From Flavobacteriaceae bacterium (GTDB taxonomy: Bacteria; Bacteroidota; Bacteroidia; UKL13-3): a stretch of DNA of 34,595 nt. The position numbers and the translations under genes were made by a program. This document shows, in pieces, positions 3,694 through 21,097 of this stretch. Position 1 is the first letter of the stretch. Each line of letters opens with the position of its first letter. The notes beneath the pieces were generated by a model. That model ran no database searches and was not told the DNA's origin. It was given only the letters and a program-made list of their open reading frames with translations. The DNA lies in assembly GCA_025363675.1 (NCBI GenBank), contig JANYDJ010000159.1, positions 1 to 34,595 of the forward strand, read 5' to 3'.

Positions 3694-4086
3694 TTACAAA
3701 CATTCCCTAATCTTCCTCGCCACTTCAGCTAATTCCTCATGACTTGGATTCAACTTAGGTCGGGTAAAATTCAAATCATCAGCAGTATCAATAGGTACTA
3801 AATGCAGGTGTGTATGGGGTACTTCTAAACCAATTACCGCTACGCCTACTTTTTTACACGGTACTACTTTCTGTATAGCTTTGGCAATAGGTTTGGCAAA
3901 TAACATTAAAGCGGATATGGCACCATCGCCCATATCAAATATATAATCAACTTCTTGTTTTGGAACTACTAAAACGTGACCTTCACGCAAGGGCATAATA
4001 TCTAAAAATGCAAAAAACCGATCATCTTCAGCTATTTTGTGGCAGGGAATTTCACCTTGTATAATTTTAGTAAATATGGATGCCAT
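3694..4086 (-). CDS. HIT family nucleotide hydrolase
   Basis: Histidine-triad protein of 130 residues, similar to HinT/Hit-like purine nucleotide phosphoramidases, which hydrolyse AMP-lysine or AMP-NH2-type substrates. The catalytic triad motif is seen as VPHTHLHLVP (His91, His93, His95), preceded by the conserved IFTKIIQGEIPCHKI and FLDIMPLREGHVLVVPK segments. The reading frame begins with MASIFTK, the typical family start. It lies 8 bases after greA on the same strand, so the two are almost certainly co-transcribed from the greA promoter and terminated by the hairpin at 3656-3690. Confidence 0.92.
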   Translation of the reverse strand: MASIFTKIIQGEIPCHKIAEDDRFFAFLDIMPLREGHVLVVPKQEVDYIFDMGDGAISALMLFAKPIAKAIQKVVPCKKVGVAVIGLEVPHTHLHLVPIDTADDLNFTRPKLNPSHEELAEVARKIRECL

Positions 4087-4094
4087 ATATAATA

Positions 4095-4565
4095 TTATAT
4101 ACTAATTTCTAGTACTTCCATTTTAATCACTCCGGCTGGTACTGTAATGTCTATAACATCGCCCACCTTTTTACCCATAAGCCCAGTTGCTATTGGAGAT
4201 TTAACAGAGATGCGGCCTGTGCTTATATCAGCTTCTTTTTCTGATACCAATTGGTATTGTACGGTATTACCTGTTTTGTGATTTTTAACTTTCACTTTGC
4301 ATAGTACCATTACTTTACTGGTATCCATTTTATCTTCATCTAGCAAACGAGCATTACCCAATAGTTTTTCCATTTGCGATATCTTAGCTTCCATTAGCCC
4401 CTGGGCTTCTTTGGCTGCATCGTATTCTGCATTTTCACTTAGGTCACCTTTATCTCTGGCTTCTGCAATCTGGGCCGATATTTTGGGTCTTTCTACAGTT
4501 TTTAGCTGTGTTAATTCCTTTTTCAAATTCTCTAATCCTTCTTTTGTAAAATATTGTACTTCCAT
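4095..4565 (-). CDS. greA: Transcription elongation factor GreA
   Basis: GreA enters the RNA polymerase secondary channel and stimulates cleavage of backtracked transcripts. The 156-residue protein has the expected two parts: an N-terminal antiparallel coiled coil (residues 1-75) with the signature KGDLSENAEYDAAKEAQG, which carries the acidic tip residues, and a C-terminal FKBP-like domain (about 80-156) with the conserved PIATGLMGKKVGD segment. The family start MEVQYFTKEGLENLKKEL supports the chosen ATG. It is followed at 8 bases by the HIT gene. Confidence 0.96.
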   Translation of the reverse strand: MEVQYFTKEGLENLKKELTQLKTVERPKISAQIAEARDKGDLSENAEYDAAKEAQGLMEAKISQMEKLLGNARLLDEDKMDTSKVMVLCKVKVKNHKTGNTVQYQLVSEKEADISTGRISVKSPIATGLMGKKVGDVIDITVPAGVIKMEVLEISI

Positions 4566-4604
4566 AATATTTGGTATTTATTGTTGCTAGTGATATTTAA
4601 AAAC

Positions 4605-4638
4605 AAACGTCCCGACCCTAAAAAGAGTCGGAACGTTT
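4605..4638 (-). terminator. Rho-independent terminator of the PorV-like operon
   Basis: On the minus strand AAACGTTCCGAC pairs with GTCGGGACGTTT (one mismatch) around a short CTTTTTAG-type loop, followed by TGTTTTTAAA. It lies 40 bases after the stop of the PorV-like gene and before greA, so it closes the three-gene operon transcribed from about 13.5 kb. Confidence 0.75.
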
Positions 4639-4678
4639 ATGATATATAATGATATTTTTTTGCTCTCTATTTTCCTAA

Positions 4679-5776
4679 TCAATCATTGTCTTTACCGCCC
4701 AAATCAATCCTTACGCCAAAGGTGTGCATATTGCCAAATGGCTTGGTTTGCTTAAACGAATAATCAAGTGCAAAGCTAGATTTATTTTTTCCAAAAGGCA
4801 ACTCTAAAGTGAAACCTGCATGAAAACCAGTGTATGCAGTATTACGTGCATCGCTACTAAAAATCCCTTGCTGATATAACATTCCTGTGCGAAGCATAAA
4901 GAAGGTTTTATATGCATATTCCAAACCCATAGCCCCCGTATTGTCTTGATAAGAATGCGAGGTGAAATTTCCTGCCAAAGTAAGTCTGTTAAAATATACT
5001 TCAGTTCCTTTATCTAATCGAAAATCGTAGCTCATGCCAAAATTTACTATGGAAGGCATACCATCCTTTGCTGAGCGTTGTTGCAATGTGGAACTATACG
5101 ATTTGGATGGGTCTTGTGCACGAATACTCATTCCATCGCCTGCGTATGAAATATCAGGACCAATATTCTTAACGGAGATACCGAGTTTAAAATCATTTCC
5201 TTTTAGTCTTCTAATTTCCTCATTGGTGTGGGTAGCTGTTCGATATTGAACACCTGCATCGAGTGTCATTGTAGATCCTGCAACTTCGGCAGTTCCTTCG
5301 CTTAAAAAACGTACCAACATGCCTCCATATATTTTCTCTGAGAATTTTTTTGCATACGACATTGCCAAATTAGTAAATTGCACGTTAAAGGTTCCCAAAC
5401 CTTCGGGCTGTTGCTCGGTAGTACGTTGTATATCGCCCGAATTAATGTTCATAAGCGAAAGTCCGATTACTCCACCGTTTTTACCTATAACCTGCGACAA
5501 TCCAAAGTTATTTATACTAATGCCTGCCAAATAGCGGGTATGAGAAAAAACAAGCTCGGTTTGCTTGGTTTGTGCAAGCCCGGCTACATTTATCCATGTA
5601 GCTTCTATGCCCTGCACATTGGCTGTATTTACGTTAGCCCAGCCATTACTTCTAGCCCAAGGATTAATAAGTAATTGCTCCCCTCCGTTGGTACCTCTTC
5701 GGTCAGGATTTCCTGCAAATACTTGACCCGATATCACTAGGGCCAAAATTGCTGTTATATATTTCATATAGTTCAT
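4679..5776 (-). CDS. PorV/PorQ-like outer-membrane beta-barrel protein
   Basis: 365-residue protein with a clear signal peptide (MKYITAILALVISGQVFAG), then the pattern of PorV/PorQ-family outer-membrane proteins: an early NPWARSNGWANVNTANVQG segment, EATWINVAGLA, then alternating amphipathic strands and a C-terminal strand GVRIDLGG. PorV in Bacteroidota works with the type IX secretion system, shuttling cargo with C-terminal sorting domains to the surface attachment complex. Here it is the last gene of a three-gene operon with a TonB-dependent receptor and a giant secreted protein, so it may be a dedicated partner for that protein; that is inference. ATGs at 5776 and 5767 are both possible; the second gives the more usual signal peptide. 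Confidence 0.75.
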   Translation of the reverse strand: MNYMKYITAILALVISGQVFAGNPDRRGTNGGEQLLINPWARSNGWANVNTANVQGIEATWINVAGLAQTKQTELVFSHTRYLAGISINNFGLSQVIGKNGGVIGLSLMNINSGDIQRTTEQQPEGLGTFNVQFTNLAMSYAKKFSEKIYGGMLVRFLSEGTAEVAGSTMTLDAGVQYRTATHTNEEIRRLKGNDFKLGISVKNIGPDISYAGDGMSIRAQDPSKSYSSTLQQRSAKDGMPSIVNFGMSYDFRLDKGTEVYFNRLTLAGNFTSHSYQDNTGAMGLEYAYKTFFMLRTGMLYQQGIFSSDARNTAYTGFHAGFTLELPFGKNKSSFALDYSFKQTKPFGNMHTFGVRIDLGGKDND

Positions 5777-5799
5777 TTCTGTAATGTAGTTTTTATGTT

Positions 5800-8700
5800 T
5801 TAGAAAGTATCCAAATCAACAGGTCTCATAATACCATACCATTTAACAATTTTTTCTCCCAGTTCAAAAGCATTTACATGCACTATATATAATCCACTTG
5901 CTATTGGTACCTGTGCTTGGTTTTTCATATCCCAGTCTGCATAGGTTAGGTCATCATCTTTCTTTATTTGCCTTACCAAGGTTCCGCTCAATGAGTATAT
6001 ACTTATCACACATTTGGGTGGGAGATTAATAAACTTCACCCGCGTATCTAATTGCGAATTTTCATAATTAGATGCTCCGTAATAAGGATTGGGCACCACG
6101 TTTATTTTGTCCATGGCTGCTTTGCCAAGGTCGGTGGAATGATCGACCGCAATATCATTTGTATTAAATGTATAATAAGGATAGTCGTCTGGATTTACTT
6201 TTGAAGAGGTAACATATTTCGAATAAGGTTTTGAAACACGTACACGGTAACGCATTTCGCTGGGTATATTAAGTTTCCCCCCATCATAATTTATATTATA
6301 GCCACTAACCATGTATGGCATAGTAACCCATTGCACTTGCGATGCTACTTGACGCTTGGTGTTAGCATCATCAATTTTATTAGGTGTACTTAGTATTGCT
6401 TGATATGACAATCCCTCGTCGTAAATCGGTCCTGTATAAGAGCCATACTTTACAGGTGCACAAACATATACATGGTGCATGCCGCCCCATAGCGGACCAT
6501 TAAAATTCGCCACATCAGCTGTAGGATTCCACACCATATCAGCTCCATTGTATCCTTTAAGCCAAGAATTTTCACCCATAATAATATTTAACCTTTCGCC
6601 AGTTTCTATATTAATTGCGTATCCAGGGAACCACGAACGCCCTCTATCTGTTGGGTCATACTCGGGTATATAGTTACCCGTGCTGGGGTCTTTTATAATA
6701 TTCCCAGTCCACGAAGCATGGTCTCTTATGCTCCATTTTTTTCTGTTTCCCTCAGCCAATAAAGGGTCTTCGCTCATTTCTACCACCACACATTTAGTCC
6801 ATTTAGATTTGTCGGGCGTAAGTACCAAATCTATGCTTATTAAGTTTGCCATTGAGTTTTCGGTATTGCTTGATACGCTCGACCCCTCAAATGCAGGACC
6901 ATAGGTATCTTCTCCTGTGCTGGTACTCCTTGCGGCTCTTGAACATAACTTATAAGGGGCCATTCTACCGTCACATACTTTTTCATAATTTTCAAAAGGG
7001 TCTAGTCCTTCAAGAGGGCTTCCAAATCTCGCAAAATCATAGGTGTATTTCGATTTATCATTCAAACCTCCCTGAGCATCATATCCAAAGCTTTCAGCTT
7101 TGCCATTCACACCTGCACGTATCCAATTATAATAGCCTCCCCCGTCTTGGTCTTTTACACCGCTTAACCATTTGCGTGTAGGGTCGCTAAACTCAACTGA
7201 TGATTCTATAGAGCCATAATTTTTGTCTATGCTGTCAATACCTGGTTGGTTAGGCTGTTTCATAGCTATAGAGAAACCGTATTCTTTTATTATCTGCTCA
7301 TTGAATTTTTTTAAGGTGCTCAAGCAATTTGTAACTTTCCCTGTTGTCTTGTTGGTAAGCGTCCATATAGCACTATCACGCATTACATTGGGGCTTTTAG
7401 AATATTTTGAGGTATCCTTCATATTAAACTCGAATTCAGCTTTTGGCACTTTTAATGGGTCAATTACACTAACTCTAATTGGTCCGAAACCATTAGTATA
7501 TACTGGAAAATCCATTTTACCATCTCTCAATATTTGATCAATTGAAGCCTTGGTCAACTCAAGAGAGTTTCCTCCGTTTCCTTGTCCCTGCATTCGAGTT
7601 ATCATAGGTCCGCTACCATACAGTGCATTAATTTTGGAGCCGCTACTTGTTGGGTCTGGTTTATGCGGAATACCTGTATAACGTTTCACATTTAAACGAC
7701 CTGCAAGGTACTGCTCTGGGTTTTGATTCATAGGATCATTCGTTAAATTGGCATAGGCTATCACCATAAAATGATACTGTTTAAAATTAACCAAACGTTT
7801 ATCGCCTGTTGCAAATAAATCTTCTTTTACGCTAAATGAATGAACCACACCCGCATTATTTCCAATTACTTTCGATACAAGTAAGGGCGACCCAACCACA
7901 GGATCATATACCCTATTTATTAGTTGAGTAACATTATCATTGATATCCATTTGATTGATTATCCTTGCCTTTTCTGTATTGTCCAAATCACCTGTTGTTA
8001 CACTGGCATCTTTTAATTGATAAATTTGATACCCTTGATACTTATAAATAAAACTATCCAAAGGGTTTTTAGAAAAGGGGTTGCGAATCTTGCCCACATA
8101 ACTCTCTGTTTCAACAGTATTTGTATTTTCAAGTACTACAATCAGTTCGTTGTCATATTCTTTTATGCTCAAGTCTGGGGCTCTTGGGCCATCTATTAAT
8201 TTGAAATTATTATTGAAAAGTATCTGTGCTTTATCGTCGGCATTCTTAAGTTGGGTGAGTGAACCTGTTGCTCCCCCTATACTACTGCGAGCCCAAACTG
8301 CACCTACCGTCATCTCGTTGCGGGCACCTGTTTTTAAAGTTAAAGGCCCGACACTTTGCAAAAACCTACGATCACCAGGTTGATTGCCAGCTCCCTTTTC
8401 TGTCCATCCATTATTGGTTACTGGGTCGCCGTTAAACATAAAGTTATATGGGGTTGCACCTCCGCGACCGTTGCCACCATAGGTTACGTGCTGCCCATCT
8501 TGCCATAATGCTCGTAGGTAATTATAATAGTGTAAGGGTTTTGTAGGATTTCCTATCACACTAAAATCATTATTATAATACATAAACGCATATAAGGGCA
8601 ATTCGTCACCGTTTTCATTTTTTGGTCCTCTAAACAAGTCCAAACCAACTGTGGGAGGGTTTAAGCCATAACCTAAAATACCTTCGTCATTGTCGTCACC

Positions 8701-9642
8701 ATTATAGCAATATCCTAAATTCCTATTAGTATCACAACCCACATAGTCATCGGAATAGTTGCCCAAATCAGGGTCAATCCACTGGCCGAAATAACAGTCT
8801 TTAACTGGTTCGCCATAATTGGTTATTTCAGTGGAATAAAAAGTCATATTATTTATCTCATCATTGGTAGTGAAAGCAAAAGCTGTGGTTTTAAGCTCTA
8901 GCCCAATGGGTACTCCTTGTGTTTCAGAATGTATATTACCTATATCATTATATACAAACCACAATGCTTGGTCACCTTTTACATCTGGATAATCCCCTTG
9001 TCCTGGCTGGTATCCAAAGCCTCCGCCATTTTCTATATAGGGTGCCATGTGAAATTCTTCCCCATAGCCAATATTGCCATTTCCCGGCCAATCTAAAATG
9101 GCTTTGGTAGTATTTGCACTAAAGTTTTTAAGATACAGGTCAATCTCTTCGCGGGTTACTTTATATATTTTATCATAATACTCACAACGTTCTGGTGCAA
9201 TCTTGGCAGTTGAAGTTAGAGCGTCTACAGAATCTATCGCTCCTGCAAAAAAGTCTATTCCGTTTTGGCGATAAGTCATAGCGGCAAGTTTTAAGTTGTT
9301 ACCTGCATCTACTCCTCCTATCCATAACGAACCGGCAAATATCGAATGCTTGCGTATACCATTAGGGTCTGTTACTTTTGGAATTTCATATTTTGCACTT
9401 ATCAAGTTCCACCACATATCACCACCATTTAAAATAGTAGTACGCACATTGTTAATATCCAGATCTACCTGTGCTGTCGGGGCTTTACATCCATCAGCCA
9501 TAGTGCGGAACAGATTATTATCGATATGCGACGGTGGGGTGCCCATTATTTCGCGAGCGGTAGAAGTATTTACCACAATGGCTGTGAGTATAACAGCAAG
9601 CAACCAATTACTTTTTGCAGTATATATATTTGAGATTTTCAT
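5800..9642 (-). CDS. Giant secreted protein with C-terminal sorting-like domain
   Basis: 1280-residue protein with a signal peptide (hydrophobic WLLAVILTAIVVNTSTA), rich in Tyr, Gly, Asn and Asp, with no catalytic motif I recognise. An Asp-rich segment (DPDLGNYSDDYVGCDTNRN and later YNGDDNDEG) looks like a calcium-binding loop. The last ~110 residues (NVVPNPYYGASNYE, then FINLPPKCVISIYSLSGTLV, then VPIASGLYIVHV) form the beta-sandwich typical of type A sorting domains of the type IX secretion system, except that the chain continues to KWYGIMRPVDLDTF instead of ending in a short basic tail. It lies 35 bases after the receptor gene and 23 bases before the PorV-like gene. The likely role is a surface or extracellular structural protein; function unknown. 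Confidence 0.75.
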   Translation of the reverse strand: MKISNIYTAKSNWLLAVILTAIVVNTSTAREIMGTPPSHIDNNLFRTMADGCKAPTAQVDLDINNVRTTILNGGDMWWNLISAKYEIPKVTDPNGIRKHSIFAGSLWIGGVDAGNNLKLAAMTYRQNGIDFFAGAIDSVDALTSTAKIAPERCEYYDKIYKVTREEIDLYLKNFSANTTKAILDWPGNGNIGYGEEFHMAPYIENGGGFGYQPGQGDYPDVKGDQALWFVYNDIGNIHSETQGVPIGLELKTTAFAFTTNDEINNMTFYSTEITNYGEPVKDCYFGQWIDPDLGNYSDDYVGCDTNRNLGYCYNGDDNDEGILGYGLNPPTVGLDLFRGPKNENGDELPLYAFMYYNNDFSVIGNPTKPLHYYNYLRALWQDGQHVTYGGNGRGGATPYNFMFNGDPVTNNGWTEKGAGNQPGDRRFLQSVGPLTLKTGARNEMTVGAVWARSSIGGATGSLTQLKNADDKAQILFNNNFKLIDGPRAPDLSIKEYDNELIVVLENTNTVETESYVGKIRNPFSKNPLDSFIYKYQGYQIYQLKDASVTTGDLDNTEKARIINQMDINDNVTQLINRVYDPVVGSPLLVSKVIGNNAGVVHSFSVKEDLFATGDKRLVNFKQYHFMVIAYANLTNDPMNQNPEQYLAGRLNVKRYTGIPHKPDPTSSGSKINALYGSGPMITRMQGQGNGGNSLELTKASIDQILRDGKMDFPVYTNGFGPIRVSVIDPLKVPKAEFEFNMKDTSKYSKSPNVMRDSAIWTLTNKTTGKVTNCLSTLKKFNEQIIKEYGFSIAMKQPNQPGIDSIDKNYGSIESSVEFSDPTRKWLSGVKDQDGGGYYNWIRAGVNGKAESFGYDAQGGLNDKSKYTYDFARFGSPLEGLDPFENYEKVCDGRMAPYKLCSRAARSTSTGEDTYGPAFEGSSVSSNTENSMANLISIDLVLTPDKSKWTKCVVVEMSEDPLLAEGNRKKWSIRDHASWTGNIIKDPSTGNYIPEYDPTDRGRSWFPGYAINIETGERLNIIMGENSWLKGYNGADMVWNPTADVANFNGPLWGGMHHVYVCAPVKYGSYTGPIYDEGLSYQAILSTPNKIDDANTKRQVASQVQWVTMPYMVSGYNINYDGGKLNIPSEMRYRVRVSKPYSKYVTSSKVNPDDYPYYTFNTNDIAVDHSTDLGKAAMDKINVVPNPYYGASNYENSQLDTRVKFINLPPKCVISIYSLSGTLVRQIKKDDDLTYADWDMKNQAQVPIASGLYIVHVNAFELGEKIVKWYGIMRPVDLDTF

Positions 9643-9677
9643 AATCTTTATTCTTGGGTTTAGTGTTTTTTTTAAAA

Positions 9678-12600
9678 TTAGAAATTGTATTTAATACCTA
9701 TTCTAAACAATCGAGGTGTTAAATAATTGCCGGGGCTATTAACGCGAACATTATACATGTCAACAAATGCCTGAGATGAATTAGCACGGGTAAGTGCCTG
9801 GCGGCCTAAATCTGAAGTTAGGTAACCATCATCGCTGGCTGAGCCTGTATAGCGATAAACGCGTGTAATATTCTGCTTATTGAATAAATTATTTACCCAT
9901 AAGTATATATTAATGGCCTTAGGTGCTTTCTTTACCTCGCCTCTGCTTTTTATCAATATTGTTTTATCAATAGTTAGATCCATTAAATATCTCCATGGAT
10001 TGCGTGAGCCATTTACAGTACCTCTAATTTGTGAACGTTGTACCACACCAACCTGTCCTTCGTTTATAGGTTGTGAGTTTGAGGTATAAGGTGTGCCACT
10101 TTGGGCTTGGAAGGTTAAATTAATACCAGCATTTTGTAAAGGATATACTTTCACAGTATTCCCTTTACTGTCTTTGCTTTTATAATTAGGTCCATCATTT
10201 GGATTATAATGAAAATCGAAGATTCCTTTAATATTATGGCGGGTATCATAGTCCAATGGGAACAAAGTACGCAAATTGGGCTGGCCAGCATTAAGTAATG
10301 ATTGGCTAGAAGCGGCATTGGAACCTGTTCCATCTGCAAATTGTAACATATAATTGGCGGTAAGGTTAATATTTTTATTGGGCCCAGCGTCTCTTATTTC
10401 ATATTCAACCCTGAAACTTTTAACCGTTCCAAAATCGAGGTTGCCAAAAGTAGTATAACTAATTGGATAAGCTTGATTGTATTTGAAAAGCTGAACGAGA
10501 TCACGCATTTCGCTGTAAGAAGCAGTGAGGCTAAGGGCTGCATTGCTCGATATCTGTTGTTTAAATCCAAGCTCGTAGTCTGTTTTACGAATCGGTTTCA
10601 AAGCAGGGTTATTAATAACTTCTGTTGAACGTTGTCTTAAGAAATAATAATCATCCACAGTTGCAATCACGCCTTCTGGTGGACGTTGGGTTAACACATC
10701 ATAATTTACGAAAAACTGCGACTCATCGTTAATAGGAAACTTGAACCAGATACGTGGCATAAAATACAATTTGGGTCTGTATGCCTGAAAAGAATTAACG
10801 GTGAGTTTTTGGTTTGGATTATTATCTACCAAATAAGGTGCAATACGTCCTGATGAATTTCTACGGTCGGTTGCTAATACTGTGGGGTCATTAATTTGTA
10901 TGCCATTATCATCGTACCACTTGGTTTGATTATTATTTTGGTTGGTATTGCGATAGCCCAAAATGGTGGTTGGATTTTCAATGTCATTTACATATACCGA
11001 TGCATCATCAGCCATTTGAGAGTTTAACTGTGCTGACAATTTGCTGTTTTCTGCACGCACCTCCCTTACAGTTTTTGTAGGATATAATGAATAGGGGTCT
11101 TTTAGTACGCTTTGGTTTGCATCATAACGGTCGATGCGAAGTCCGACGCGGAAAATCAAATCTTTAAATGCAAACTTGTCTTGGATAAATGCTGATTGAT
11201 AAATGGGCTGGAAAGCTCCAATAGTACGATGTGTTGAATCATTAAAGAAATCAGCAAAACTGGGTTTGTTGCCTTTTAGTTTATTACCCAAATAATCGTA
11301 ACCAAAGTAATTAACATAGGCCGTTCCATTGTTTAATAATTCATCAGGACTAAAATAACTTAGCTTATAATGCTCAGGTCCGTACATCATCACATCTAAA
11401 TAAGAATTGGGACCAATAGGATTTCCATTATAATCTTTAGCCCCCACTTCCATTAAATGCTGGCGAAGGTTGCTTGTGAAAACACCCTCACGGCCTGGTG
11501 CTACTACTGAATTATATGATACGCTATCTTGGAAAACGCCATTTGCATCAAACGACAATAGAGGATTTGCCTTATCAAATTTAGGCTCTGATTGTGTAGC
11601 AAGCTGCCTCATAAGTGACCAAAGCTGGGCAGGGTTGGCCATACTCCAACCACGAGAAAAACGTTGCTCGTATATAATACCAAATTGTAAATCGTGTTTT
11701 TTATTAGGATCTCTTTTGCTTTGCAGGGTAATTTCACTCATGGCAAACAAGGTATATTTTTCTGTTTGCGATTTGCCATAACCCGACCCTTGGGTTCCTA
11801 CATTATTCCACATGGAGTAAACACTTGTAGGATTGTCGCCATTAAGAAGTGCCAAGTTAGCTCTAATCTGATCTAAGTTATATACATTCCTACCTAACTG
11901 CTGCTGGTATGCATAAAAGTTCTTGGTATAATTTGCCCTTATAGCATTGCGATTTTGAGCATCGGGAACAAAGTTTACTGCAGTATCATAATAGCCTGCT
12001 TGTTGGTAATAGGTACTAATTGATACTGTGGTATCATGTCCGTTAATTTGGGTTTTGAACTGATGTTTTGGGGCATTAATATTACCTCCAACTAATTCGT
12101 AATAGGGTGCACGCTTGGTGGTAAAACTGCCTATATACCCATAATCAAATACTTTATCTTTATGGGTTGCATCTAAGGTGAGGTTGTTGCCTTGCGTATA
12201 ATCAAATCTAATTTGGTAATAGGCATTGCTCACTATAGATTTACTTTCTTCTTCATCGCCTTTTTTCTTTTCAGCACTTTTTAAAGTATGGGTAAACTTA
12301 ACGTACCCTGTAGCAGTGCTTCCTGTTGAATGATTGTTTTGAGAATTATTGAACAAGGTATTGCCAAAATTATAATTAATGGCATCGCCATACGAATAGA
12401 AACCACCTAGATCTATTCTCACCTTTTTGGTGGGCTGAAATTTTAAAGCACCATTTAAATTGTAATTATAAGTAGGTGTGTTGCGGCGTGCTTGGTCATT
12501 AACCATATCATCTTTGGTAACAAAATCGGCGGCATTCATATAACCGGTATTGTTTTTTGATGGCAGCAAAGGTGTTTGTTCTATCTTTTTTAGCACATCA

Positions 12601-13490
12601 TCTTTTACATACCAATTACCTATCACGCTAGGGTTTGGGTCTTTCACATAGGTATAATTGCCTCCTAACGAGTAGCCTAAAACTACATGCTCCTTAGCCC
12701 CTTTGTTTTTATTTTTTATCCAGATAGGGCCTTGCAAAAAACCTTCAATTAAATTATAATTATACTTATCTGTTAGCTTTGAACTTACTATTTCAATTCC
12801 ACCATGTGTAACTCGCGAAGGGCCTTTGGTAGTAATATTAGTTACGCCTCCTGTAAAATCGCCGTACATTGCGGGAACACCTCCAACCAATACTTGCAAC
12901 TGCTCTATACTACCCCGTGGTACTGAATTTCCTACACGTATGCCGTCAATAAATACAGCATTACCATTGTTACGTGCTCCACCTATGTTTCCAACACCTC
13001 CGCCAAAACCTGTAGTTTTAGCGGCAAAGCCGGTTGCATCTCTGTTTCCTCCTATTCTTGAAAGGGCTTTTGCATCAAAAGTTGTAGCATTTGCTCCATC
13101 ATCTGTAATTATTTTTGTTTTAATTTTGGCCTTGGGTGCATGTATAATAACTCCCCCAATTTCCACAATTGCATCCATTACTTTATCGCCTTTGGCTATC
13201 TCACTTATTCTAACCTGCAGTGGCAAAGAATCTGTCTCGTATCCTTTCAAGTTATACACTACTAAATAATCTCCGGGTGTGAGGGGCTTAAAACTAAATC
13301 CTCCGCCAGAATTTGTATAGGTATTATCAGTATTATTACCATCCTTAAATAAGGAAATCTGCACGCCTGGCAGTGGTGCTTTAGTTTTACCATCGGTAAC
13401 GATGCCTCGCATCTCGCCATCTGAACTTTGAGCTTTGATTACGCCTGTAAATAAAAGGCAACCTAATGCTAGAATGAAAATCTTTTTCAT
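9678..13490 (-). CDS. TonB-dependent receptor with carboxypeptidase-regulatory-like domain
   Basis: Outer-membrane active-transport barrel of 1270 residues. The start is MKKIFILALGCLLFTGVIKAQ (ATG at 13490, cleavable signal); the ORF track's 31 extra upstream residues are not signal-like. After the signal comes a ~90-residue beta-sandwich, GIVTDGKTKAPLPGVQISLF to PLTPGDYLVVYNLKGYET, as in many Bacteroidota receptors, then a plug domain (NAVFIDGIRVGN, PAMYGDFTGGVTNITTKG) and a long barrel ending in the aromatic terminal strand RLFRIGIKYNF. There is no SusD partner; instead the next genes are the giant secreted protein and a PorV-like barrel. It may import a substrate processed by that protein or assist its assembly. 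Substrate unknown. Confidence 0.9.
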   Translation of the reverse strand: MKKIFILALGCLLFTGVIKAQSSDGEMRGIVTDGKTKAPLPGVQISLFKDGNNTDNTYTNSGGGFSFKPLTPGDYLVVYNLKGYETDSLPLQVRISEIAKGDKVMDAIVEIGGVIIHAPKAKIKTKIITDDGANATTFDAKALSRIGGNRDATGFAAKTTGFGGGVGNIGGARNNGNAVFIDGIRVGNSVPRGSIEQLQVLVGGVPAMYGDFTGGVTNITTKGPSRVTHGGIEIVSSKLTDKYNYNLIEGFLQGPIWIKNKNKGAKEHVVLGYSLGGNYTYVKDPNPSVIGNWYVKDDVLKKIEQTPLLPSKNNTGYMNAADFVTKDDMVNDQARRNTPTYNYNLNGALKFQPTKKVRIDLGGFYSYGDAINYNFGNTLFNNSQNNHSTGSTATGYVKFTHTLKSAEKKKGDEEESKSIVSNAYYQIRFDYTQGNNLTLDATHKDKVFDYGYIGSFTTKRAPYYELVGGNINAPKHQFKTQINGHDTTVSISTYYQQAGYYDTAVNFVPDAQNRNAIRANYTKNFYAYQQQLGRNVYNLDQIRANLALLNGDNPTSVYSMWNNVGTQGSGYGKSQTEKYTLFAMSEITLQSKRDPNKKHDLQFGIIYEQRFSRGWSMANPAQLWSLMRQLATQSEPKFDKANPLLSFDANGVFQDSVSYNSVVAPGREGVFTSNLRQHLMEVGAKDYNGNPIGPNSYLDVMMYGPEHYKLSYFSPDELLNNGTAYVNYFGYDYLGNKLKGNKPSFADFFNDSTHRTIGAFQPIYQSAFIQDKFAFKDLIFRVGLRIDRYDANQSVLKDPYSLYPTKTVREVRAENSKLSAQLNSQMADDASVYVNDIENPTTILGYRNTNQNNNQTKWYDDNGIQINDPTVLATDRRNSSGRIAPYLVDNNPNQKLTVNSFQAYRPKLYFMPRIWFKFPINDESQFFVNYDVLTQRPPEGVIATVDDYYFLRQRSTEVINNPALKPIRKTDYELGFKQQISSNAALSLTASYSEMRDLVQLFKYNQAYPISYTTFGNLDFGTVKSFRVEYEIRDAGPNKNINLTANYMLQFADGTGSNAASSQSLLNAGQPNLRTLFPLDYDTRHNIKGIFDFHYNPNDGPNYKSKDSKGNTVKVYPLQNAGINLTFQAQSGTPYTSNSQPINEGQVGVVQRSQIRGTVNGSRNPWRYLMDLTIDKTILIKSRGEVKKAPKAINIYLWVNNLFNKQNITRVYRYTGSASDDGYLTSDLGRQALTRANSSQAFVDMYNVRVNSPGNYLTPRLFRIGIKYNF

Positions 13491-18534: not shown

Positions 18535-19632
18535 ATGCACCTCAAAAACCTCACACTCCGCAATTTTAAAAACCATGCAGAACTTGTATTGGATTTTAGC
18601 GAGGGAGTAAACTGTATTACTGGGGCAAATGGCTCAGGCAAAACAAATATATTAGATGCTTTGCATTTTCTCAGTTTTACCAAAAGTTTTTTGATACATC
18701 AAGACCACCAATTGGTGCGAGATGATTGCGACTCTATGCTGCTGGATGGTGTGTATGATAACAATGGATTTGAACAAACAGTGCAGGTACTGCTAAAAAA
18801 GCCAGGTCGCAAAACATTTAAAGTAAATAATAATGCAGTGGGCAAATTGGGAAGCCACATAGGTATGTTGCCATTGGTATTGATAGCCCCACAAGATATA
18901 TGGTTACTGCAAGAAGGCAGCAGTGAACGCCGCCGCTTTATGGATATGGCTTTGTGCCAATTGGACAAGCAGTATTTGAGTAATTTGAATTTATATAATA
19001 AAGCAGTGGAGCAGCGTAACCGTTTGCTGAAGCAGACGGCAAGTGATGCTTTGCATACACTTGATGATGAACAATTAGAAAGTTTGAACAAGGTAATGAT
19101 TCCTGCAGCAGAATATATATATAATAAACGAACTGCTTTTATTAAAGAATTTGTTCCATTTGTAGTAGATAGTTATCATACTATAAGTGGAGGAACAGAG
19201 GTGGCGGGTATTATATATAACAGCAATTTGCAACAAGGGAAGCTGGGAACTTTATTGCAAAAATCAATTGAGAAAGACAAGATATTACAACGCACTTCGG
19301 TAGGAATACATAAAGATGATTTGGAATTTTCATTGAACAATTTTCCTATAAAAACACATGCATCGCAAGGCCAGCAGAAAACATTTATTATAGCTTTAAA
19401 AATGGCGGTATGTTATTATATACATTCGCAAACTAATATATATCCCATGCTTTTGCTCGACGATATATTTGAAAAGCTAGATAGCAATCGCAGCATGGCT
19501 TTTTTGCAAATGGCAGCCAATAATTATTCCGGGCAAGTAATCATTACTGATACGCATATAGAGCGATGCAAAGCGGCACTTCAATTAACAAACAAAGAAA
19601 TCTATTACATAACTTTGACCACCAATGGGTAA
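18535..19632 (+). CDS. recF: DNA replication and repair protein RecF
   Basis: RecF is an SMC-like ATPase that helps load RecA at gaps through RecFOR. The 365-residue length is normal. The N-terminal MHLKNLTLRNFKNH is the family start; Walker A is GANGSGKT (residues 30-37); the ABC-type signature is ASQGQQKTFIIALK; Walker B is MLLLDDIFEKLD; and the D-loop/H segment is QVIITDTHIE. The conserved APQDIWLLQEGSSERRRFMD is also present. The gene follows the toxin-antitoxin island, and its 5' end is partly repeated at 17718-17806 and 17146-17182. The next ORF begins around its stop codon. Confidence 0.96.
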   Translation: MHLKNLTLRNFKNHAELVLDFSEGVNCITGANGSGKTNILDALHFLSFTKSFLIHQDHQLVRDDCDSMLLDGVYDNNGFEQTVQVLLKKPGRKTFKVNNNAVGKLGSHIGMLPLVLIAPQDIWLLQEGSSERRRFMDMALCQLDKQYLSNLNLYNKAVEQRNRLLKQTASDALHTLDDEQLESLNKVMIPAAEYIYNKRTAFIKEFVPFVVDSYHTISGGTEVAGIIYNSNLQQGKLGTLLQKSIEKDKILQRTSVGIHKDDLEFSLNNFPIKTHASQGQQKTFIIALKMAVCYYIHSQTNIYPMLLLDDIFEKLDSNRSMAFLQMAANNYSGQVIITDTHIERCKAALQLTNKEIYYITLTTNG

Positions 19633-19672
19633 ACTGCACAATAATTTGGTGTTCATTACGTTTAGTCAAGTA

Positions 19673-21097
19673 ATGGAGCTTTGCTACTCTTCATCTAAAT
19701 TATGCTTTTGTTTATGGTGTTTAATCACCTTGCCATCGCATGCCCAGGTAGTAAGTTTTAAATACCTAATAGAACAAACACCTGTTACCAAAATGCCGGT
19801 ATATAAATATAGTGCGGGCAATATTGTTAAAATTCACATGTCGTTTGCCAAAGCTGAGACTGATAGTAACTTGCGAAACAGTATCTCCTCCATCAAAAAT
19901 GGCATTATTGACCGAATAGATTTGGTATATAGCCGCTATAAACTCAATGATAGTTTTGACCAAAAAAAACTAAATACCCAACGGTTAAAAAAACTATATA
20001 GTATACTCCCTGAAGTTTTTAACAATTCCACCGCACAATGGAATATTATAGAGCAGCAAAATTGCCCCGATGAAGATGCTAGTAAATTATTATATCATGG
20101 TTTTGTTTTTTACCTCACCCCCCCTACTGAAATTATTAAGAAATATTATATTATAGATAGCGTTAAAGATTTATTGGGGGCGACAAGTGAAATTGATTTT
20201 ATAGAAAAATCTATTAAACGTGGCACCGAAAAAGTGGATGAAAAATATATCCCTTTTCGCAAAAAAGTAGTTAAAAAGAAAATTCTAGACACTACCTACT
20301 CTGGCAAATATTATCCAAATTCAAATATATTATATAAAGTTGGGGTAATGTTTAAAACACCTGGCAGTAAAGAGCGAGAAGCGGAATATGATATTAAAAC
20401 AAGATATATAAAAGATACAATTTTGGTGAAGAACGATTATCATATTGGTAAATTTAATTTTGCAATGGCTGGGTTGAGAGACAGTTCGCTGGGGCGGATA
20501 TTTGATAGAAATAAAGAATGGGGAAATATAGCGGTGGTGCAAGATGTAACTGCGAGTATGTATTCTTTTACCACCCAATTATTTGTTTGGCGACGTATGC
20601 AAGTTGATCGAGGGAAAATTAATAAATTTGTTTTTTTTAACGATGGAGACAATCATCCCGACGGGCCAATAGGCAAAAGTGGCGGCATATATTGTATAGA
20701 AAGTGATTCGATAAATTTGGTTGAAAACTATGCCTATACTGCTATGAGCAGAGGGAACGGAGGTGCGGTGCCAGAAGGAGATATAGAAGCTCTGTTAAAA
20801 GCACAAGACCAATTTCGCTCCATTAATAGTATTATATTAATTGCCGATAATTTTGCAAATGTTAGGGATATGCAATTATTATCATTGGTAAAAAAACCTG
20901 TTCATATAATTGTATGCGGTGTTACCAATAACAAAGTATTATTCGACTATGTTAAGATTGCCCAAGCAACAAATGGTTCTATACATACCTCCGAAAAAGA
21001 CTACCCCTCTCTCGCCGACTCTCTAAAAAAAGGGCCTGTTGAAATTGGCAAACTTAACTATATGATGGTAAAAGGCAAACTTACCTTAGTTAAATAA
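19673..21097 (+). CDS. Secreted protein with von Willebrand factor A-like domain
   Basis: About 474 residues from the ATG at 19673, which places the hydrophobic LCFCLWCLITLPSHA at the usual signal position; the ORF track's start at 19625 would overlap recF by 8 bases. The first 260 residues are of unknown fold. The C-terminal half looks like a VWA domain: NIAVVQDVTASMYSF gives a DxTxSM version of the metal-binding DxSxS motif (Asp291), then KFVFFNDGD, GNGGAVPEGDIEALL, SIILIADNFANVRD and KPVHIIVCGV. Such domains bind ligands through a divalent metal. No partner is evident. It may share a transcript with recF. Confidence 0.65.
   Translation: MELCYSSSKLCFCLWCLITLPSHAQVVSFKYLIEQTPVTKMPVYKYSAGNIVKIHMSFAKAETDSNLRNSISSIKNGIIDRIDLVYSRYKLNDSFDQKKLNTQRLKKLYSILPEVFNNSTAQWNIIEQQNCPDEDASKLLYHGFVFYLTPPTEIIKKYYIIDSVKDLLGATSEIDFIEKSIKRGTEKVDEKYIPFRKKVVKKKILDTTYSGKYYPNSNILYKVGVMFKTPGSKEREAEYDIKTRYIKDTILVKNDYHIGKFNFAMAGLRDSSLGRIFDRNKEWGNIAVVQDVTASMYSFTTQLFVWRRMQVDRGKINKFVFFNDGDNHPDGPIGKSGGIYCIESDSINLVENYAYTAMSRGNGGAVPEGDIEALLKAQDQFRSINSIILIADNFANVRDMQLLSLVKKPVHIIVCGVTNNKVLFDYVKIAQATNGSIHTSEKDYPSLADSLKKGPVEIGKLNYMMVKGKLTLVK

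Follow-up and report, generated by a model that had tools for sequence, protein, structure and literature searches.

The window (the whole stretch of DNA that was analysed, 34,595 nucleotides) is contig C184 of a draft genome of an uncultured bacterium, 3.5 Mb in size and 87% complete. Among named relatives, a Bacteroidetes metagenome bin (L095) is the closest. On its minus strand, the genes for a TonB-dependent receptor (TBDR), a secreted protein of 1280 residues and a PorV-like outer-membrane barrel follow one another in this order. We use "BIG" as a working name for the secreted protein and "trio" for TBDR, BIG and PorV-like together. The features of the locus are as follows.

9678-13490, minus strand: TBDR gene, 1270 aa, with signal peptide, CarboxypepD_reg domain, plug and barrel
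5800-9642, minus strand: BIG gene, ORF of 1280 aa, with signal peptide lacking a lipobox, a large N-terminal beta region, a variable middle, and a C-terminal T9SS-type domain with tail
7408-9507, minus strand: N-terminal beta region of BIG, residues 46-745, from Foldseek matches
5803-6180, minus strand: C-terminal T9SS-type domain of BIG, residues ~1155-1280, from the PorZ family model and Foldseek
5803-5826, minus strand: 8-residue C-terminal extension of BIG, RPVDLDTF, beyond the canonical end of the C-terminal domain (CTD)
4679-5776, minus strand: PorV-like outer-membrane barrel gene, 365 aa, forming its own branch within the PorV/PorQ family
4603-4640, minus strand: intrinsic terminator at the operon end, 17-bp stem and T-run
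4095-4565, minus strand: GreA, conserved neighbour past the terminator
3694-4086, minus strand: HIT-family protein, conserved neighbour after GreA

The intergenic gaps are exactly 35 and 23 bases, so that the tight spacing described in an earlier note on this DNA is correct, as are its coordinates and description of the genes. The clear terminator that it claimed is also present, reaching −24.7 kcal/mol from 4640 to 4603 (z = −7.6), a value equalled by none of the shuffles. GreA and then the HIT protein are located 3′ of this terminator, and LigA is upstream of the trio. A promoter scan of the locus yielded a site count not above that of shuffled sequence. All three trio proteins start with a signal-peptide-like stretch, and none of the three showed a lipobox when read directly. 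Elsewhere in the window, a 490-aa ORF lies immediately after recF (19625-21097, plus strand), which matched nothing in Pfam or NCBIfam.

Assignment of the three proteins

The TBDR matched the Pfam model PF13620 (CarboxypepD_reg) with an E-value of 1.8e-12 and the plug model PF07715 weakly, while its family profile matched, in the PDB, the plug regions of TBDRs such as Cir and PirA with E-values of 2e-13 to 2e-7. A conserved VxxYKxPLI-like stretch on the N-terminal side of the plug in the family consensus is a candidate TonB box. The receptor matched no NCBIfam model, and hence it was not named SusC.

The N-terminus of BIG, MKISNIYTAKSNWLLAVILTAIVVNTSTA-RE, was identified by direct reading as a Sec signal peptide without a lipobox. 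BIG belongs to no family of Pfam or NCBIfam, its 22 relatives gave weak matches to CTD-type models and nothing else, and a PDB sequence search with the single sequence and with the profile found no match. Identity of at least 90% was observed at 206 of the 1280 positions (43 aligned sequences), and the two halves were modeled by AF2 with pLDDT values of 88.7 and 85.6. For the C-terminal half, the top structural match in Foldseek was PorZ (5m11, E 3.2e-6), and the CTD of NucA (8glk_D) was matched with a probability of 1.00, from which the C-terminal domain was assigned to the beta-sandwich CTD fold. The PorZ family model aligned to residues 1175-1267 and gave no match outside the CTD; among the 22 family members, the curated PorZ model matched 17 and that of PorU matched 6. 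The score against the type A sorting model TIGR04183 was 17.9 bits, below the cut-off of 23, so that the domain could count as type A only in the sense of a divergent subtype. The type IX sorting-like domain read earlier is supported as a T9SS-type CTD by the fold match to PorZ and the NucA CTD, with more likeness to the CTD of PorZ than to ordinary type A cargo. The SprA translocon of the same genome (G000) was detected with 2447 bits. Judged from the sequence and the models, export of BIG by the T9SS is a well-supported prediction.

In Foldseek, the N-terminal half of BIG was partly similar to sugar enzymes of the GH94/GH15 type, namely to their supersandwich domains (E 2.5e-6 to 1e-3, probability mostly 1.00, TM 0.15-0.27), which may be a hint at sugar handling and no more. 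Another contig of this genome (C277) encodes a 522-aa T9SS protein that consists of the N-terminal module of BIG (~39-42% identity) and an ordinary type A CTD (L079:1624-3192); such short forms of the N-terminal module were also found in other genomes of the class.

The PorV-like protein passed the NCBIfam model of the PorV/PorQ family (NF033709, 122 bits against a cut-off of 90) and fell below the equivalog cut-offs of PorV (NF033710, 62 of 250 bits), PorQ (49 of 220) and PorV2 (44 of 325). Its family profile matched F. johnsoniae PorV (6h3i_F) with an E-value of 9e-17. The true PorV (483 bits), PorQ (316) and PorV2 (432) were located on other contigs of the same genome, where a further PorV-family paralogue that fits none of these three was also seen (L083:5553-6557, contig C201). 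Judged by these scores, the PorV-like protein is the fifth PorV-family paralogue of the genome, and BIG has a private paralogue despite the presence of a general PorV. Family membership and a conserved pairing with BIG, as suggested earlier, were therefore verified, while its being the PorV of this genome was ruled out by the PorV found elsewhere. The BamG model NF053685, contained in the same library, was not matched at E-values up to 1; identity with BamG/BamH was rejected on this basis and because BamH is a lipoprotein (PMC12611786).

Conservation, tail and duplication of the trio

Loci for comparison were picked solely by similarity to BIG, and their neighbours were inspected afterwards. 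In the family of the window, the PorV-like gene was found at 20 of 20 loci and the TBDR gene at 19, the remaining locus running off its contig. In other families of the class the trio was present at 16 of 20 loci, as far as the contigs reach; the other four are lone BIG copies, three of them in genomes that have a trio locus too. A full-length BIG stands alone at L048, L052, L053 and L055, where neither a TBDR nor a PorV-like gene adjoins it; most of these genomes also have a trio. The trio together with GreA and HIT is syntenic in the family of the window and in 16 further families of the class, and the testable rates over 80 named GTDB loci were 58/63 for the TBDR, 68/75 for PorV-like, and 59/69 for both GreA and HIT. 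In other classes of the phylum, the order TBDR-BIG-PorV was kept at 18 of 18 loci without GreA/HIT. A D-3-phosphoglycerate dehydrogenase-like gene, identified by eye, takes the place of GreA/HIT at four of the out-of-class main-lineage trios (L175, L178, L181 and L188). GWxTD-domain proteins adjoin the PorV-like genes of trios at L179:226-4871 and L190:4078-5457.

The main-lineage trio of Bacteroidia is usually present in a single copy, beside GreA/HIT in most sampled families. Of the 23 other families sampled in the class, 21 gave BIG matches, one through the N-terminal module only; overall, 56 of 58 genomes gave a match. When sampling was by species instead, the trio was absent from at least 20 complete genomes of the class. 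SprA was detected in all 31 BIG-bearing genomes tested and also in 10 of 11 tested class genomes without the trio, so that its co-occurrence is uninformative on T9SS dependence and was dropped as proof of it. Given that 16 other families of the class and all 18 out-of-class loci show this order, the grouping is far beyond chance, and the trio is a conserved, same-order unit across Bacteroidota. The co-localisation check posed in the earlier note was therefore positive within the family, in other families and outside the class. That three envelope genes became neighbours by chance is practically negligible as an explanation, as envelope genes can cluster but the synteny in most sampled class families and in other classes refutes it. 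The parts themselves (TBDR, T9SS cargo and PorV family) are of already known kinds. In the open-access literature we found no description of their conserved combination as a system, nor of a private PorV paralogue serving a PorZ-like CTD or of the fixed tail.

The unusual MRPVDLDTF end of BIG noticed earlier is indeed present and conserved. Exactly 13 residues follow a conserved Lys of the CTD in 113 of 114 non-redundant main-lineage trios, compared with 5 residues in 6 of 7 paralogous trios that lack the tail, which defines an extension of exactly 8 residues. Its pattern in Bacteroidia is R-P-x-D-L-D-x-F, with F or Y as the terminal residue in 104 of 111; the corresponding count in other classes is 15 of 17, where position −3 is mostly L and position −2 mostly D/N. 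As a control, only 2.2% of 982 ORFs end in [LIVM]xx[FY]. The tail has low pLDDT and is poorly ordered in the AF2 model. The fixed distance to the chain end and the terminal aromatic residue suggest a putative docking peptide in the main lineage. The tail is unlikely to be a barrel beta-signal, its conserved hydrophobic residues being at 0 and −3 instead of 0 and −2. Neither is it a general pairing signal, as trio paralogues without the tail exist and it is thus not required for pairing.

These paralogues were examined in an out-of-class genome (G119) that exhibited 21 PorV-family matches. As a control, the canonical PorV of this genome adjoins a C25 peptidase of the PorU type. Nine sets of TBDR, CTD protein and PorV were identified, namely two main-lineage sets with the tail and seven without it; in one set (L218) the CTD protein lies apart from the TBDR. 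Pairwise protein distances across the nine sets were correlated most strongly between TBDR and PorV (r 0.87, p 0.0001), followed by TBDR and CTD protein (r 0.70, p 0.001) and CTD protein and PorV (r 0.57, p 0.003), and were little altered when L218 was left out. Because the nine sets share a genome, these correlations go beyond what species history would give by itself, and on the sequence distances each set duplicates and diverges as a whole. Some tail-less sets have sugar-enzyme neighbours. In one (L220), the PorV gene is immediately followed by a GH9 cellulase gene, and a T9SS protein with CBM9 is encoded ahead; another (L225) adjoins a GH94 phosphorylase, and two more (L217 and L221) adjoin a GHL10 protein. 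The stretch L220:3-10854 looks like a polysaccharide-utilisation locus around a tail-less trio, within which no SusD was seen. Main-lineage trios lie beside GreA/HIT and not beside sugar enzymes, so that the glycan link comes from the paralogues of one genome.

A possible uptake complex and its alternatives

The earlier note had regarded the locus as a dedicated secretion or surface-assembly unit. A real conserved unit was found; however, that reading leaves aside both the TBDR and the carbohydrate-active enzymes that adjoin some paralogous trios, and these would suggest uptake by a complex whose lid is secreted. We place about half of our belief in the reading that the trio is a TonB-driven uptake complex, in which BIG is a surface lid delivered by the T9SS in place of SusD and held by its cognate barrel. 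BIG, having a signal peptide and no lipobox, would enter the periplasm by Sec and would then be exported by the T9SS through its C-terminal domain. The general PorV would not pass it on to the sortase for cleavage; its own PorV-family barrel would take it and may retain the CTD permanently as an anchor, a role proposed for PorQ in the case of PorZ. At the cell surface beside the TBDR, BIG would serve as a substrate-binding lid or partner, doing a SusD-like job, and the TBDR would import the ligand with TonB energy. We infer the physical complex, the retention of the CTD, the direction of uptake and the substrate. Counted in favour of the uptake complex were the operon and its synteny, the sorting-type CTD fold, the separate PorV paralogue, the fixed tail, the co-divergence, and the sugar-enzyme neighbours of some paralogous sets; counted against it were the GreA/HIT setting of the main lineage, the uninformative SprA, the N-terminal match with TM of at most 0.27, and the absence of the tail from paralogous sets.

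An unlikely alternative, yet the one that survives best, is that the single-copy main lineage serves not uptake but the upkeep of the outer membrane or the T9SS, in the manner of accessory complexes for attachment or assembly such as PorQ-PorU-PorZ or BamG-BamH. The usual single copy, the GreA/HIT synteny in most sampled class families, the strong conservation of BIG, and a CTD that is most PorZ-like are consistent with such a role. However, the complete class genomes that lack the trio, together with SprA in nearly all of those tested, imply that it is not needed for the T9SS or BAM in general, and the several paralogous sets of one genome, some beside sugar enzymes, as well as the missing BamG match of the PorV-like protein of the window, also argue against it. 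We consider it improbable that the TBDR acts in export, as Oar does in Myxococcus, so that BIG or another protein would be secreted or assembled at the surface with TonB energy, even though the receptor has CarboxypepD_reg and plug, as Oar does (PMC6434023), and its gene is directly upstream of that of a secreted protein. The T9SS-type CTD of BIG, its PorV-family partner, and SprA in the same genome make a second exporter unnecessary. CarboxypepD_reg is also present in importing TBDRs, which counts against this reading as well. A similarly low probability is given to BIG being a surface adhesin or coat protein held by the barrel, with an unrelated or regulatory role of the TBDR; type B CTDs provide established examples of an adhesin with a cognate barrel (PMC12618676), but in the trio the TBDR is as tightly conserved as the barrel, and the co-divergence of these two is the strongest of the pairs.

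Returning to the uptake complex, we tentatively speculate that it could represent a third architecture of TonB-driven import, in which the T9SS supplies the lid, a dedicated PorV-family barrel acts as shuttle and permanent anchor, and the main-lineage tail, aromatic-ended and of invariant length, locks the parts. This architecture would be ancient in the phylum and missing from many complete genomes of the class, a proposal that we regard as somewhat doubtful. If it is true, the T9SS supplies parts of nutrient importers besides exporting enzymes and adhesins, and many unassigned PorV-family genes of Bacteroidota would each encode a carrier and anchor dedicated to a single surface protein. It would also give a role to a strongly conserved protein family that lacks a Pfam or NCBIfam model, and turn the escape of some CTDs from the sortase into a testable question.

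Comparison with known systems

SusD is the lipoprotein partner of SusC. Like the trio, SusC/SusD is encoded by an operon in which a TonB-dependent barrel is joined by a large surface partner, and it is amplified in some genomes, with some copies beside glycoside hydrolase genes; unlike it, the partner in the trio is a T9SS-type non-lipoprotein with its own PorV-like barrel, and the trio TBDR matches no NCBIfam model. PorU and PorZ are T9SS proteins whose CTDs remain uncleaved and barrel-bound, the CTD of PorZ being on PorQ, and cognate PorV-like barrels were proposed in a review to protect such uncleaved CTDs (PMC10202324). The trio resembles PorZ-PorQ and PorU-PorV in that the CTD of a surface protein is thought to be docked on a PorV-family barrel, and the CTD of BIG is most like that of PorZ; it differs in consisting of separate paralogues, as the genome has its own PorQ and PorV, and in adding a TBDR. 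For type B CTD cargo, cognate shuttle pairs with PorP/SprF are established, whereas a single PorV is described as the rule for type A CTDs (PMC12618676). A dedicated barrel gene adjoins the cargo gene in both the type B systems and the trio (PMC12618676), but BIG has a CTD of the type A/PorZ kind and a barrel from the PorV family. BamG/BamH of the Bacteroidota BAM likewise combines a barrel, which is FadL-like, with a large surface protein (PMC12611786). It differs in that BamH is a lipoprotein and that the PorV-like protein of the trio has no match to NF053685. Unlike the trio TBDR, Oar has no known PorV partner, and Myxococcus xanthus is not known to have a T9SS. The two receptors nevertheless share CarboxypepD_reg and plug as well as a tie to a secreted protein, Oar being required for the secretion of PopC (PMC6434023).
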